Shown here: positions 5,004 through 18,954 of the stretch, in pieces
How the letters are laid out: every line of letters starts with the position of its first letter
Numbering within the stretch: position 1 is the stretch's first letter
DNA from: an uncultured Pelagibacteraceae bacterium
GTDB taxonomy: Bacteria > Pseudomonadota > Alphaproteobacteria > Pelagibacterales > AG-422-B15
NCBI GenBank assembly: GCA_902524795.1
Contig: CABZEU010000014.1
Location: 1-36,746, forward strand
Direction: 5' to 3'
DNA: 36,746 nucleotides
The notes under the pieces: model-generated
The model's database searches: none
What the model was told of the DNA's origin: nothing
The model's input: only the letters and a program-made list of their open reading frames with translations
Position numbers and translations under genes: made by a program

Positions 5004-6076
5004 TAAACCCTATCCGATTTTGTAAATACTTTTTGTTTCTTGAACGTTTGTTTTTTGTAAGTAGGAAACAACTGAAAAAATAATTTTATTTTTACCCAAC
5101 GACCATAAATACCTAGAGGTTCATAAAGTATGAAAAGAACAAGTATCAGTCCAAAAAGCATAGGCTCTAACCCTGGCTGTGAACCAATTGAACTTGGTAA
5201 ATAATCTCTGCAAATTGCTATAAATTGTGGAAGCGAGCCTACAAAAATTGCTCCAAATACAGTTCCATGGAGACTTCCCATTCCGCCTACAACAATCAAA
5301 AGAAGCAATGTTAGTGATAGGAAGATATTAAAGATGTCTGGCGCAAGATATCCAATGTAGTGAGCGAGCAAAGCTCCGGCTAGTCCAGTAAAAGCTCCTG
5401 ATATAGCAAATGATAAAGCTTTATATAAACCTAAATTTACCCCTAGACTTTGAGCGGCAATTTCACTGTCTCTAATGGCTACAAAAGCTCTGCCAGTAGG
5501 TGATCTTAATATATTTATAGCTGCAAACATGGAAAGTACTAGGAAAGCTAGACAAACATAATAAAAGGTAGCACTGTCATAGAAACTCATTCCCATAATT
5601 TCAGGCTGCGGCACAGGCATTCCTCTGTTTCCTCCAGTAAAATGTTCCCATTTAATAAAGACATGTTCAGCAATAAAACATAAAGCAAGCGTTGCAATCG
5701 CTAGGTACATACCTGTTAAACGAAGAATAGGTATTCCTATGAATGCACCCACCATAAATGAAACTATTACAACTATTGGAATGGAGGCAAAAAATGGGAT
5801 TCCATTTGTCAGCAAAAATGCATGCGTATAGGCTCCTATGCCTAGGAATGCAGCATGACCGAGAGAGGCAAGTCCCGTGTAACCAGATAAGATCATTAAT
5901 CCAATTCCTGCGATAGCCAAAATGCAAACGTAGGAAATCTCTCCTAAATAAAAATCATCAATGAGAAGCGGCATTGCAAGCATTAATATAATTAACAATG
6001 AATACCAAAAGCGATCACCACTATGCCGTGCAATATTAATATCTTGAGCGTAATTTGTTTTAAAAATAAATCTCAT
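5003..6076 (-). CDS. livM: Branched-chain amino acid-type ABC transporter permease LivM
   Basis: This is the second inner-membrane permease of the Liv-type importer, 357 residues long, with about nine or ten hydrophobic segments. The family hallmarks are LSGYTGLASLGHAAF near residue 65-80, the cytoplasmic EAA-like loop AIRDSEIAAQSLGV that docks the ATPase, and LLLIVVGGMGSLHGTVFGA near residue 260. It has a basic tail of about 40 residues (KKQTFKKQKVF) after the last helix. Start and stop each overlap a neighbour by one base (livH upstream, livG downstream), a tight operon. Confidence 0.9.
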   Translation of the reverse strand: MRFIFKTNYAQDINIARHSGDRFWYSLLIILMLAMPLLIDDFYLGEISYVCILAIAGIGLMILSGYTGLASLGHAAFLGIGAYTHAFLLTNGIPFFASIPIVVIVSFMVGAFIGIPILRLTGMYLAIATLALCFIAEHVFIKWEHFTGGNRGMPVPQPEIMGMSFYDSATFYYVCLAFLVLSMFAAINILRSPTGRAFVAIRDSEIAAQSLGVNLGLYKALSFAISGAFTGLAGALLAHYIGYLAPDIFNIFLSLTLLLLIVVGGMGSLHGTVFGAIFVGSLPQFIAICRDYLPSSIGSQPGLEPMLFGLILVLFILYEPLGIYGRWVKIKLFFQLFPTYKKQTFKKQKVFTKSDRV

Positions 6077-6957
6077 TAAACTTTTTTAACCTCAGCTTTA
6101 TCTGAAAATAATCCTCTTGGATAAATAATTAACGCTAAGATCAGCACTAAGTAGGCAGAAATTTCTCTGATGCCTTCAAATAAATAATTTTCATATGTTC
6201 CACACAATTGTTCAACTATGCCAATGATTATTCCTCCTACAATTGCACCAGGAATAGATCCAAATCCACCAAGCACTGCTGCAGCAAAAGCTTTTAGTCC
6301 AATAAGTGAGATTGAAGTATCAACAAGCGTTATCGGTGCAAGCAATACACCAGCAATCGCAGCTGTAGCAGCTGATATTGACCAAATTAACGAAAAAATA
6401 AATTTAACTGGGATACCCATATAATATGCGGCTAGTTGATTTTCTGAGGAAGCACGCATGGCTACACCAATCCTTGAAAATGTAAAAAAGAGATAAAGAA
6501 CTGAGACTAAAATAACGGTCCCAATAATTATAGATAAGTTAACATATGAAATAATAAGACCATTAAACTCAGTTATTTTTCCTGAAAAGGGTGTACTGAA
6601 TGAAAAGATATCAGTTCCCCAATAAATTGATGCAAAGCCTCTTAAAATAAATCCTATTCCTATGGTTAACATAACTGTTGCAAATGGAGGCTGGCCGATA
6701 ATTTGCCTTACAACAACTGAGTCTAAAAAAAATCCAAATACAGCAATTATTACAACAGTGAGAGCGAATCCCATGATGTAATCCATGCCTAGAACGCCTA
6801 TTAACGAGAAGGCGACAAAAGCACCGAGCATTAAAATATCACCTTGAGCAAAATTTATAGTTTCTGTCGCTTTGTAGATTAGAACAAAGCCAAGCGCCAC
6901 TAGCCCGTAAATGCATCCTGATGCCACACCGTCTATTATTAATTGTATCAATTGCAT
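6076..6957 (-). CDS. livH: Branched-chain amino acid-type ABC transporter permease LivH
   Basis: This is the first permease of the Liv-type importer, 293 residues and about eight membrane helices. Typical LivH features are the start GVASGCIYGLVALGFVLIYK, then TINFAQGDILMLGAF, the EAA-like loop GVAMRASSENQLAAYYMGI, and AFAAAVLGGFGSIPGAIVGG near the end. It is the first gene of the livHMG operon. The 161 AT-rich bases upstream are shared with a divergent membrane-protein gene, and no binding-protein gene is attached. Confidence 0.91.
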   Translation of the reverse strand: MQLIQLIIDGVASGCIYGLVALGFVLIYKATETINFAQGDILMLGAFVAFSLIGVLGMDYIMGFALTVVIIAVFGFFLDSVVVRQIIGQPPFATVMLTIGIGFILRGFASIYWGTDIFSFSTPFSGKITEFNGLIISYVNLSIIIGTVILVSVLYLFFTFSRIGVAMRASSENQLAAYYMGIPVKFIFSLIWSISAATAAIAGVLLAPITLVDTSISLIGLKAFAAAVLGGFGSIPGAIVGGIIIGIVEQLCGTYENYLFEGIREISAYLVLILALIIYPRGLFSDKAEVKKV

Positions 6958-15761: not shown

Positions 15762-16481
15762 ATGACATCAGAATTTACATTATTTGGTTTTCATCATCTA
15801 ATTTCAATTACATCAATCTTTGCAATTTCATTTCTATTTCCTGCAATGGTGAGATTGATTAACAATAAATCAATTACTGAAATAATCTTAATCATCTTAG
15901 GAGCTCTATTAATTATCCATGAATTAGCAAAACCTTTTTACAGAGTTTTTTTTTATGATCATTCTGTTTATGAGGTTTTTCCAATACACATTTGTCATAT
16001 CGCAGCATTATCGATGGGAATTTATATCTTCACTAAAATTAAATTTTTTTTTGAAGTTGCGTACTTTTTTGGACTAACTGGAAATTTGTTAGCTATGGTA
16101 ACGCCTGATGTTGATTATACTTATCCAGATGCTGAATTCATTACATATTACTTTGGTCATGGATTGCTTTTTATGACTGTATTTTATGTATGTATCTGTA
16201 CCAAAGTGGAATTGACCTGGAGTTCAGTAATTAGAGTTCTAGTTTTTGCTGTTTCCTTATTACCATTGATTTACTTGCTAAACCTTTATCTCGTTAGTTA
16301 TTTTGCTGATGCTAATTACTGGTATTTAATGATAACGCCTGCAGCCAATACGTTGTTGGATTTCTTCCCAGCCCCACCATGGCATATACCTTATCTAGCA
16401 ATATTAGCTCTGATCTTGTTTGTGATGTCGTATTGGGTGTACTTAGCCCTAATGAGACTAAATAAATTCAAATATCTTTAA
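15762..16481 (+). CDS. TIGR02206 / YwaF-family integral membrane protein
   Basis: This 239-residue protein has about seven hydrophobic helices and matches the TIGR02206 (TP0381/YwaF) pattern: FGFHHLISI at the start, FPIHICHIAALSMGIY near residue 80, FFGLTGNLLAMVTPDVDY, an FGHGLLFMTV helix, and WYLMITPAANTLLDF near the end. The conserved His residues at helix ends suggest a binding site in the membrane, but no function is established for the family. It is monocistronic, with no clear ribosome site before its ATG. Its last 24 bases overlap a small ORF on the opposite strand. Confidence 0.82.
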   Translation: MTSEFTLFGFHHLISITSIFAISFLFPAMVRLINNKSITEIILIILGALLIIHELAKPFYRVFFYDHSVYEVFPIHICHIAALSMGIYIFTKIKFFFEVAYFFGLTGNLLAMVTPDVDYTYPDAEFITYYFGHGLLFMTVFYVCICTKVELTWSSVIRVLVFAVSLLPLIYLLNLYLVSYFADANYWYLMITPAANTLLDFFPAPPWHIPYLAILALILFVMSYWVYLALMRLNKFKYL

Positions 16482-16607
16482 TATAATGATTGTGTTTAAG
16501 ACTAATAGCAGCAGAGGAACCACTGTTCTTATGAGTTCCATGATGTGATTAATGTTATCTAACTTCTTTTCGAGCTCAGATTTGTTATTCAGTAATTTGT
16601 TCAACAT
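16458..16607 (-). CDS. Small single-helix membrane protein, nearly leaderless
   Basis: This 49-residue ORF starts MLNKLLNNKSELEKKLDNIN, an amphipathic charged part that may form a coiled coil. It continues into a hydrophobic helix of about 20 residues (VVPLLLLVLNTIIILKI) and ends in FEFI. I recognise no family. The support is a near-consensus promoter whose -10 ends 6 bases before the ATG, so the message would begin at or next to the start codon. There is no Shine-Dalgarno sequence, as expected for a leaderless gene. It overlaps the 3' end of the TIGR02206 gene by 24 bases on the opposite strand. It could still be a chance ORF. Confidence 0.42.
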   Translation of the reverse strand: MLNKLLNNKSELEKKLDNINHIMELIRTVVPLLLLVLNTIIILKIFEFI

Positions 16608-16941
16608 ATAACAATTATAACACATCAATTTATTAAGTTCAAGTTTTATTATGTAAAACAGTAACTTATAAAATTTTATGAATATTTTACATTACCTTAA
16701 AATACTATCGGATCAATCAGAATAAATAGCAAAAATTATCTACATAAAATTTTATATCTTAGTTCGTAAGTTCTTGAGATTTTCAAACGAATCAAATCAA
16801 GGTTGATAATTCTTTTAATTTCAAAATTTCAATTTTTATTATGAAAAATATAAAAATCGAAAAAGAATGTCCAAATCATATCCAGGCAAGTGTTTGCCTA
16901 AATTCAGTGTTTAATATTTTCAATTAAGGAGAACAGAGACA
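16608..16941. other. AT-rich intergenic region with one hairpin
   Basis: This is the longest stretch without a gene. It contains the leftward promoter described above and, near the right end, a hairpin AGGCAA-GTGT-TTGCCT (16884-16899) with a 6-base stem and 4-base loop. The hairpin lies 27 bases before the AAGGAG ribosome site (16926-16931) of the PiT-like gene. I see no known riboswitch, RNA gene or repeat. The hairpin could belong to the 5' leader of the permease message. Confidence 0.5.
16614..16642 (-). promoter_or_regulatory. Sigma70-type promoter for the small membrane ORF
   Basis: On the minus strand: TTGAAC (complement 16637-16642), a spacer of exactly 17 bases, and a perfect TATAAT (complement 16614-16619). 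Transcription would start at about 16607, the first base of the ATG. Confidence 0.6.
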
Positions 16942-17937
16942 ATGGAAATATCTGACGTTTATATGATTATCGGTTTCACTTTAGCAGCTTATTCTGTGGT
17001 TGCTAATGACAGCGTGCAAACGCTTGGAACTTTTATTGCATCAAATTCAGAAAAGTTTAAATGGTATATACTTGCAGGCGCAGCTTCATCAGTATTAAGC
17101 TTAACATTATTTTATGGATGGTACATGTATGATGACATCTCATACGGTAGATTGAATAAAATACCATTTCAGGAAATTAAGTGGTATCACGCAGCTGCTC
17201 CAGGATTTCTTTTACTATTTACTAGATTTGGTGTTCCAGTATCTACGACATTTTTAGTACTATCTGCTTTTGCATCAACTGTAATTTTGGAAAAAGTTTT
17301 AATCAAATCTGTGATGGGTTATGGATTAGCTGCAATCATTGCTTATACGATATGGATTGTTATCTCAAGATACATTAATGAAAAATTTGATAAGGTTGAT
17401 AATATTAAACGATGGAGAGTCTTTCAGTGGATGACAACAGGTTTCCTCTGGTATACGTGGTTATCACACGATATGGCTAACATTGCTGTATTTTTACCTA
17501 GAGATCTACCTTTGACAATGTTAGTTGCAATTATTCTTCTTTGTTCTGCATTGTTATTTTATATATTTTATGAAAAGGGAGGACGTATTCAAAAAATTGT
17601 ATTAGATAAAACTGGAACTCGTTTCGTAAGATCTGCTACAATCATTGATGGAGTTTATGCCTTTATATTACTTTATTTCAAGCAGTATAATGATATCCCA
17701 ATGTCAACCACATGGGTCTTTGTGGGAATTTTGTGTGGTCGAGAATTAGCTATCGCAACAACAGCAGCTGATTACAAACTTGGCTATGTTTTTCCAATTA
17801 TTGGTAAAGATTTCCTAAAAATGATCAGTGGTCTTTTGATTTCTGTGGCAATAGTTCTATCAATCCATTATGTGATAATTCCTGGTGGATACGAAGATAT
17901 TAACTTTGCATTTTTAGAATCGTCTTTTAGGTTCTAA
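16942..17937 (+). CDS. PiT (PHO4)-like inorganic ion permease, divergent
   Basis: This 331-residue membrane protein has about ten helices. The inverted-repeat signatures of the PiT phosphate permease family can be recognised. First half: VVANDSVQTLGTF (19-31, family pattern GANDxANxxGT) and GVPVSTTFLVLSAF (97-110, family PxSTTHxxxG). Second half: SHDMANIAVFLPR (175-187) and DIPMSTTWVFVGILCG (251-266). The family transports phosphate or other oxyanions with H+ or Na+. This member is shorter than PitA (about 500 residues) and lacks the long central loop, so the substrate is uncertain. It has a good AAGGAG ribosome site 10 bases before the ATG and stands alone. No Pho box is visible upstream. 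Confidence 0.72.
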   Translation: MEISDVYMIIGFTLAAYSVVANDSVQTLGTFIASNSEKFKWYILAGAASSVLSLTLFYGWYMYDDISYGRLNKIPFQEIKWYHAAAPGFLLLFTRFGVPVSTTFLVLSAFASTVILEKVLIKSVMGYGLAAIIAYTIWIVISRYINEKFDKVDNIKRWRVFQWMTTGFLWYTWLSHDMANIAVFLPRDLPLTMLVAIILLCSALLFYIFYEKGGRIQKIVLDKTGTRFVRSATIIDGVYAFILLYFKQYNDIPMSTTWVFVGILCGRELAIATTAADYKLGYVFPIIGKDFLKMISGLLISVAIVLSIHYVIIPGGYEDINFAFLESSFRF

Positions 17938-18120: not shown

Positions 18121-18954
18121 CTAAGATACGTATTCTAATAAGAAAACGCCTATAAACAAAATAATAGCCGCAGCAAGCCTTCTCTTTAATCCTTGTTCTT
18201 TAAAAAATAGTAATCCGATTAGTGAGGCAAATATTATACTGCTCTCTCTTATTGAAGCGACGTAGTGAATTGGTGCTTGTGTATATGCCCATAGAACAAG
18301 TGAGTATGAAGTTACAGAGCCAAGCGCAGCAATAATTAGTGGAAACTTGTTTTTGGTGAATGTTGTTATCAATAAATTGCGCTGATTGCTTATAGAATAA
18401 AGCAGAATTGGAATAGGCATCAAAAAAAATAGCCACACAATATACTGCATGGAGCTTTCAACAGATTTAACCGCATATGAGTCAACTAAAGTATAAAACG
18501 TTATAGAAACTGGAAAATACAATAAGGCCAATACATTTTTATAATCTAAGCTGAAACTTTTACCGATAAAAAGAACAAAAATACCTGATATGATTATTCC
18601 AATTGCTATGATTTCATTTAATGAAATTGTCTTGTTTAAAATAAATATTAAAATCAAAATTGTTAGTAAGGGCGCTAGACCTCTTGCAAACGGATAGGCG
18701 ACCGAGAAATCCTCTATAGCATATGCTCTTGTTAATGAGTGCATGTACATTGTATGGGCAATGACTCCAAAAAATAAATATATTGCTGCAGTAGAAGAGG
18801 GTAGGCCCACATAAAATAGGAAAGGCACCATCATAAGTGAGATGATGGATGCAAGTGTAACCATTTTTGCTAAACCATTGCCCTTATTCTTAATGAAGGC
18901 ATTCCATGATGCATGGAGGATAGCAGCAAACAGAATGACTGCTAAAATTGACAT
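18121..18954 (-). CDS. EamA / drug-metabolite transporter family permease
   Basis: This 277-residue inner-membrane protein has ten predicted helices in two EamA halves (DMT superfamily). It begins ILAVILFAAILHASWNAFIK, and ASWNAFIK is typical of EamA proteins. Each half carries a Pro- and Gly-containing helix (GRGLAPLLTILI-type in the first; HYVASIRESSIIFASLIGLL in the second). The exported compound is unknown. It is the last gene of an operon starting with the SDR and PNPOx-like genes; one base separates it from the latter. The operon suggests a metabolite that is reduced or oxidised and then exported, which is only an inference. Confidence 0.85.
   Translation of the reverse strand: MSILAVILFAAILHASWNAFIKNKGNGLAKMVTLASIISLMMVPFLFYVGLPSSTAAIYLFFGVIAHTMYMHSLTRAYAIEDFSVAYPFARGLAPLLTILILIFILNKTISLNEIIAIGIIISGIFVLFIGKSFSLDYKNVLALLYFPVSITFYTLVDSYAVKSVESSMQYIVWLFFLMPIPILLYSISNQRNLLITTFTKNKFPLIIAALGSVTSYSLVLWAYTQAPIHYVASIRESSIIFASLIGLLFFKEQGLKRRLAAAIILFIGVFLLEYVS

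Follow-up and report, generated by a model that had tools for sequence, protein, structure and literature searches.

SAR11 bacteria and their phages rank among the most numerous entities of the ocean, where growth is phosphorus-limited over wide areas. Phage auxiliary metabolic genes for phosphorus have been described, and the known ones encode enzymes, binding proteins or transporters. According to the accessible text of PMC10710835, the 31-residue membrane protein MgtS of Escherichia coli is thought to inhibit the PiT transporter PitA. Accessible portions of two further sources report a SAR11 arsC, with an aquaporin gene downstream, that is inversely related in frequency to surface phosphate (PMC6426599), and phosphate islands in HIMB59, another marine alphaproteobacterial order, that are flexible and contain a Pit gene of patchy occurrence (PMC10734472). 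The accessible part of PMC6589437 contains nothing on a SAR11 Pit transporter, and the literature search found no paper on a small protein such as the one described here.

The window, which is the whole analyzed stretch of 36,746 nucleotides, is a contig of an uncultured Pelagibacteraceae bacterium (CABZEU010000014.1, assembly GCA_902524795.1). It contains a small gene that looks like a real, strongly conserved gene and may encode a protein that helps to control phosphorus uptake. The features of the region are as follows.

15762..16481, plus strand: TIGR02206/TMEM164-like gene, convergent, with a 24-base overlap with the small gene (16458-16481)
16458..16607 (stop codon included), minus strand: small gene for a probable single-pass membrane protein of 49 residues (conservation, selection, structure model)
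16608..16628, minus strand: in-frame upstream extension with TTG 16628 and ATG 16625, probably unused
16614..16619, minus strand: −10 hexamer TATAAT, 6 bases upstream of ATG 16607
16637..16642, minus strand: −35 hexamer TTGAAC, layout also in viral relatives
16942..17937, plus strand: divergent PiT-like phosphate transporter gene, 331 residues (PF01384 match below threshold, fold match, recurrent neighbor)
18121..18954, minus strand: EamA gene, TIGR03340-like but below the model cut-off, a recurrent neighbor of the family in SAR11

The small gene and its promoter

On the minus strand, TTGAAC is followed by 17 bases, TATAAT, 6 bases, the ATG at 16607, 49 codons and the stop codon TAG at 16460-16458; the product is MLNKLLNNKSELEKKLDNINHIMELIRTVVPLLLLVLNTIIILKIFEFI. 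A preliminary description had proposed this promoter layout in front of a 49-residue single-helix open reading frame and its overlap with the TIGR02206 gene, and both were found again when the sequence was checked. The exact promoter pattern occurred once in the window, versus 0.04 occurrences expected in shuffled sequences. A looser sigma-70 scan of positions 16400-17000 gave no excess (3 sites versus a shuffle mean of 4.4), and the promoter alone is therefore unconvincing. The reading frame is open upstream of ATG 16607, and the in-frame ATG 16625 and TTG 16628 would extend it to 56 residues. A TAA is located 3 codons before the conserved ATG in the genus mate G019 and 1 codon before it in G067, a relative outside the genus, so that comparison favors ATG 16607 as the start and a start at ATG 16625 was rejected. 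The promoter is near-consensus and directly adjoins the start codon, with a predicted transcription start on position 16607 or beside it. The minus strand also contains a perfect 6-base inverted repeat, GTTTTACATAATAAAAC at 16643-16659, immediately ahead of the −35 hexamer, which is identical in six of the seven aligned genus sequences, including the most diverged one (G019), and absent in G067; it is a possible operator.

The preliminary description had suggested a search for protein-level conservation across relatives, and such conservation was found. The protein is identical in genus mates with 85-98% identity of the surrounding DNA, and the 49 codons differ from those of G019 by 7 synonymous and 0 non-synonymous changes. 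Relatives in another family of the order are 70% identical over 40 of the 49 residues and 47% identical over 38 of them. Pooled dN/dS values ranged from 0.036 to 0.115 in five groups. The group of the window (G067 included) gave 0.064, two further SAR11 groups gave 0.100 and 0.036, and the values of the two viral groups were 0.041 and 0.115. The small gene is thus conserved as a protein under purifying selection. A chance open reading frame was rejected because of these values, the relatives in the order and the profile matches.

The AlphaFold2 model contained a single helix from residue 2 to 45 with a mean pLDDT of 88, which together with the conservation backs the single-helix membrane protein proposed before; the best hydrophobic stretch of 19 residues is 25-43. 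The protein is probably located in the inner membrane, which it would cross once with the N-terminus inside, as judged from lysine- and arginine-rich N-termini in several relatives; the N-side of the protein of the window is itself neutral. Members of the family are roughly 40-66 residues long and share the core ERKLDxxNHxMELIRTxxP, a nearly invariant helix followed by one membrane helix, and E13, L16, D17, H21, M23, L25, R27, T28 and P31 are invariant in the 71-row family alignment. No model in Pfam, NCBIfam or PHROGs passed for this family, and a PDB sequence search gave no convincing relative (best E 0.88).

Evaluation of the leaderless expression claimed in the preliminary description needs to consider the upstream regions of the relatives. 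Upstream sequence was available for the window and for seven genus mates; the −10 motif was TATAAT in five of these cases and TATAGT in two (G010, G086) and had been lost in one (G019). G067 contains TATACT 5 bases ahead of the ATG. The nearest viral clade exhibited a promoter 6-9 bases ahead of the ATG in eight of nine distinct upstream sequences, the exception being L185, which has its upstream sequence in common with L208; L184 was cut off. A −10 motif at 5-9 bases from the ATG is thus common to the window, to most of its genus mates, to G067 and to the nearest viruses, but not to G019. Occurrence of the same layout in the nearest viral clade supports leaderless expression of the gene in the window, which stands as a prediction from the layout.

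The layout was also scored in the whole family as a sigma-70 promoter with at least 10 of 12 matching positions and the −10 motif 3-12 bases before the ATG. Nine of 46 distinct viral upstream sequences (L166-L168, L172, L173, L175, L176, L186, L243) contained it, versus 23 of 441 other gene starts on the same contigs, a comparison that favors the family since up to three ATGs were considered for its members and one for the controls. Among 64 distinct cellular upstream sequences, three reached 10 of 12 and six reached 9, and all but L127 belonged to the genus of the window or to G067. Several other relatives possess Shine-Dalgarno-like sequences instead, as judged by reading. This distribution indicates that the promoter on the start codon is a property of one branch common to host and phage and not of the whole family.

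Distribution among SAR11 genomes and marine phages

A five-row profile with a cut-off of E ≤ 1e-12 identified the small gene in 36 of the 397 genomes of the order. At E ≤ 0.01, the profile listed 58 genomes, and the additional 22 were left out: eight contained no more than a C-terminal fragment of 16-22 residues (G329, G299, G211, G249, G196, G084, G050, G140), with the flanks read in six of them, and 14 were weak matches with E values of 0.002-0.007 that were taken as chance, six of them within a protein of about 598 residues. A 71-row profile at E ≤ 1e-6 gave no relative in two wider samples. The class sample comprised 384 other genomes, and four genomes listed in its search are members of the same order; the phylum sample comprised 298 others and overlaps with the class sample. 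A scan of named genomes yielded 84 relatives, of which 80 were kept. The titles of 76 of these name Pelagibacteraceae or Pelagibacter, with AG-337-G06, one of the Pelagibacteraceae, classed in Candidatus Pelagibacterales; the remaining four were two Dehalococcoidia, one alphaproteobacterium and one Neomarinimicrobiota contig, which has the gene order of the viral contigs L207 and L211. Among cells, the small gene is patchy and nearly confined to SAR11.

Decayed C-terminal remnants of about 16-22 residues adjoin a TIGR03340-like permease gene in the loci L083, L080, L081, L082, L079 and L085 (near 5945-6025), and four of these six remnants are beside genes read as diacylglycerol-kinase-like, PlcP-like and glycosyltransferase genes; L079 and L085 end at contig ends. 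L072 (G336) contains the small gene twice in tandem, as diverged copies on the minus strand at 5972-6112 and 6128-6262 that come after a ugpQ-like gene.

The family is widespread in marine phage contigs. In IMG/VR, 348 of 376 stretches with the pattern encoded relatives, and the best 80 of these 348 were kept. Genes around the viral copies, read in a sample of loci, were those of phage replication, namely DNA polymerase B, clamp, clamp loader and a CobS-like ATPase, and the adjoining polymerases of L203 and L187 matched those of jumbo phages and T4-like cyanophages best, with about 50% identity. A tblastn search of a collection of cultured phages revealed no relative at E limits of 0.01, 0.1 or 10; a 51-residue control query worked in this search, and low-complexity filtering may hide some relatives. 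Eight whole phage records, including HTVC008M and Melnitz-2, contained no relative at E ≤ 0.01, and one 10-residue match was obtained at E 0.09. Viral contigs (L203, L205, L208, L223, L225) and SAR11 loci alike also contain, near the small gene, members of a family of membrane proteins of about 71-90 residues, which was defined by single-linkage clustering of BLAST matches.

The tree of the small protein was built on 42 columns, its bootstrap had not settled, and many of its forks are unresolved. The SAR11 label requires four changes on this tree, and the AU test rejected a single SAR11 clade (p 0.0042). The group of the window falls into the same half of the tree as the viral copies L172, L173, L175, L176, L166-L168, L186, L185 and L208, and the support for this half is weak.

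Phosphorus genes around the small gene

Neighboring gene clusters were named by Pfam or NCBIfam matches of representatives and otherwise by reading. Some of these names are below the NCBIfam cut-offs: TIGR03340 with 125-133 bits versus 288, PhoR with 290 versus 334, PstS with 149 versus 207, arsC with 67 versus 174, and ugpQ-like; for the latter two, the Pfam models LMWPc and GDPD pass. The loci of 35 of the 36 genomes could be judged, since that of G034 was cut by a contig end. In 31 of the 35, a phosphorus gene was present within about two genes of the small gene, as a raw count. The neighbor was a PiT-like gene in eight genomes of the genus of the window, in G067 and in five g3 genomes with the order arsC-like, aquaporin, PiT-like and small gene. 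It was phoR followed by pstS in G118, G395 and G045, phoR at a contig edge in G243, and a TIGR03340-like permease gene in G130; twelve g6/g10 genomes contained ugpQ-like and/or PiT-like genes or phoR-pst. Outside the 36 genomes, L096 carries phnA (TIGR02335), an aldehyde dehydrogenase gene, the small gene and phnW (TIGR02326), with phnA and phnW above cut-off, and L097 has the same order. The four exceptions were G138, G089 and G191, in which a large membrane-channel-like gene precedes the small gene by about 18 bp, and G069 with the small gene in a housekeeping region. The channel-like gene gave a sub-threshold CASTOR/POLLUX match in G138, the genome in which this was tested.

The positions of the small gene in SAR11 are thus several and unrelated, and most of them are close to genes for phosphorus acquisition. 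In marine bacteria, such loci can be flexible islands, as described for HIMB59 in the accessible part of PMC10734472, and this neighborhood may partly be a landing-site effect. A scan for Pho boxes of the E. coli type found none. A second small membrane protein of 75-87 residues (cluster 14; L010 1186-1449, minus strand) is encoded in two settings, after the small gene in 11 g6/g10 loci and next to the PiT-like gene in two genomes that have no small gene there (L249, L254).

The product of the gene at 16942-17937 matched PF01384 (PHO4) with E 1.5e-5 and 24.5 bits, compared to a gathering score of 33.7, and a g3 member of these PiT-like proteins gave no Pfam match at 0.001. A PDB sequence search with the PiT-like protein found no match. 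Its structure model (pLDDT 73.5) matched only two PDB chains at E ≤ 0.001, both of the sodium-dependent phosphate transporter 6L85, with a probability of 1.00, TM scores of 0.61 and 0.60 on the query and an rmsd of about 7. PiT-like genes were present in 78 of the 397 genomes of the order, in 24 of the 36 with the small gene versus 54 of the 361 without it (Fisher p 8.6e-11, relatedness ignored). In 22 of these 24 genomes, the two genes were within about 2 kb in three arrangements, and in G138 and G034 they were on different contigs. The small protein is no obligate subunit of the transporter because a PiT-like gene was not detected in 12 of the 36 genomes and 54 of the 78 genomes with a PiT-like gene are outside the 36. 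The flanks examined in 20 of these 54 contained no relative of the small gene; where the same junction was seen, PiT-like followed by algA or ugpQ followed by a gene for 76-78 residues, the small gene was simply missing.

The PiT-like gene is also viral, with at least 264 relatives among 600 stretches with the pattern, and this transporter gene is by itself a candidate phosphorus gene of viruses. Viral PiT-like genes (L269-L348, IMG/VR) are 61-71% identical to the gene at 16942-17937. No PHROG match at 0.001 was obtained for 26 aligned viral members. In a tree of 15 SAR11 and 25 viral PiT-like rows, the two were on separate sides, so that no recent exchange was seen for this gene. The two genes were not seen together in the viral loci: all 80 loci of the small gene lacked a PiT-like gene, and all 80 PiT-like loci lacked the small gene. 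Among long viral contigs, which are fragments, the 11 with the small gene had no PiT-like gene. Of the 19 with a PiT-like gene, 17 lacked the small gene, and the other two contained it at distances of 6 and 11 kb. A search for small partner genes recurring beside the viral PiT-like genes found none.

Possible function and comparison with known systems

To understand the biological meaning of these data, a membrane protein of SAR11 and marine phages is tentatively proposed, acquired from phages, that docks onto a transport system and adjusts it, in the window most likely the PiT-like one; this reading is held with rather less than even confidence. SAR11 may have taken the small gene from phages more than once and kept the copies in phosphorus loci. 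The juxtamembrane helix ERKLDxxNHxMELIRTxxP would dock onto a membrane transport system, with the divergent PiT-like transporter as the most likely target in the genome of the window, and the docked peptide might adjust activity or stability of the transporter by analogy to MgtS and PitA of E. coli. A phage would use a host-type promoter to make a leaderless or near-leaderless mRNA of its copy early, and through the encoded peptide it would control how much phosphate or ions the infected cell is supplied with. The strongest facts to the contrary are the 12 genomes without a PiT-like gene, the channel-linked copies, the viral copies away from PiT-like genes and the lack of a recognizable Pho box. 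A bolder version, which we regard as doubtful, is that an undescribed family moves repeatedly between marine phages, both T4-like and jumbo, and SAR11, is expressed early and leaderless and tunes phosphate transporters directly, with the host having taken over a control peptide.

The preliminary description had named the overlapped TIGR02206 gene, for a TMEM164-like membrane enzyme, as one candidate partner that the small protein might regulate. The 24-base convergent overlap is kept in the genus, but it is gone in G067, where the neighbor is still present; a TIGR02206-like relative was found near the small gene only in the genus of the window and in G067 among the loci L046-L245 and in none of the 80 viral loci. 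Regulation of this gene as a general role was rejected because of this narrow distribution, and with phosphorus genes as the recurrent neighbors, it is hardly credible as the partner. In the window, the PiT-like gene is the better candidate, as judged from gene positions. A holin, pinholin or antiholin of a phage, captured later, would agree with the small size, the single hydrophobic helix and one weak PHROG holin match (E 0.05, one of 20 members), which was the best PHROG holin match obtained. This origin is very improbable: no lysis cassette was recognized in the sample of viral loci read, where the neighbors were replication genes, the promoter layout suggests early and not late expression in one clade, cells keep the gene under selection, and the conserved part is a charged juxtamembrane helix.

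The main rival is a phage protein for takeover or superinfection exclusion, which SAR11 would have domesticated against related phages, with phosphorus loci being hot spots of gene gain. It is a serious candidate, if not a probable one. Many viral contigs carry the family, its occurrence in SAR11 is patchy, and no member was found in the other cells sampled from class and phylum; the viral copies are located among replication genes, a host-type promoter on the start codon suggests early expression in the nearest viral clade, and some SAR11 loci do not have the gene at the same junction. Yet the five phosphorus settings, PiT-like, ugpQ-like, phoR-pst, TIGR03340-like permease and phnA/phnW, would be hard to obtain from a pure defense gene, and a convincing PHROG match was not found. 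Alternatively, the protein may be a general regulator of membrane proteins, acting for instance on proteolysis or ion flux, which rides on phosphorus islands as a passenger. The copies linked to a channel-like gene in G138, G089 and G191, the negative Pho box scan and the viral copies without a PiT-like neighbor are consistent with this alternative, which is unlikely given the strong purifying selection and the 31 of 35 judgeable loci near phosphorus genes at unrelated positions.

This family, which is common to SAR11 and phages, is mostly located near phosphorus genes in the host and agrees with none of the family models tried, is a directly testable candidate for the control of phosphate entry by phage and host, and the host gene and its nearest viral relatives alike offer the promoter-on-ATG layout. 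As with MgtS and PitA in the accessible text of PMC10710835, a tiny membrane protein is linked to a PiT-family phosphate transporter. Here, the link consists of neighborhood only. In contrast to MgtS, the present family possesses a charged juxtamembrane helix that is conserved, occurs in phages as well and is positioned in phosphorus loci. AcrZ, SgrT, MntS and MgtR/MgtU are similar in their general kind, as small proteins adjusting a transporter, and the accessible text of the same source does not mention sharing between phage and host for them. The five g3 loci, with the small gene next to arsC-like, aquaporin and PiT-like genes, resemble the SAR11 arsC-aqpS low-phosphate cassette of PMC6426599, in the accessible part of which no small membrane protein is mentioned and the word Pit is absent from the main text. 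Finally, the small gene resembles the phosphorus auxiliary metabolic genes of phages in that viral copies exist of a gene sited in host phosphorus loci, and the PiT-like transporter is also viral. It would differ from them in encoding a small accessory protein, and its viral copies are not clustered with the PiT-like gene.
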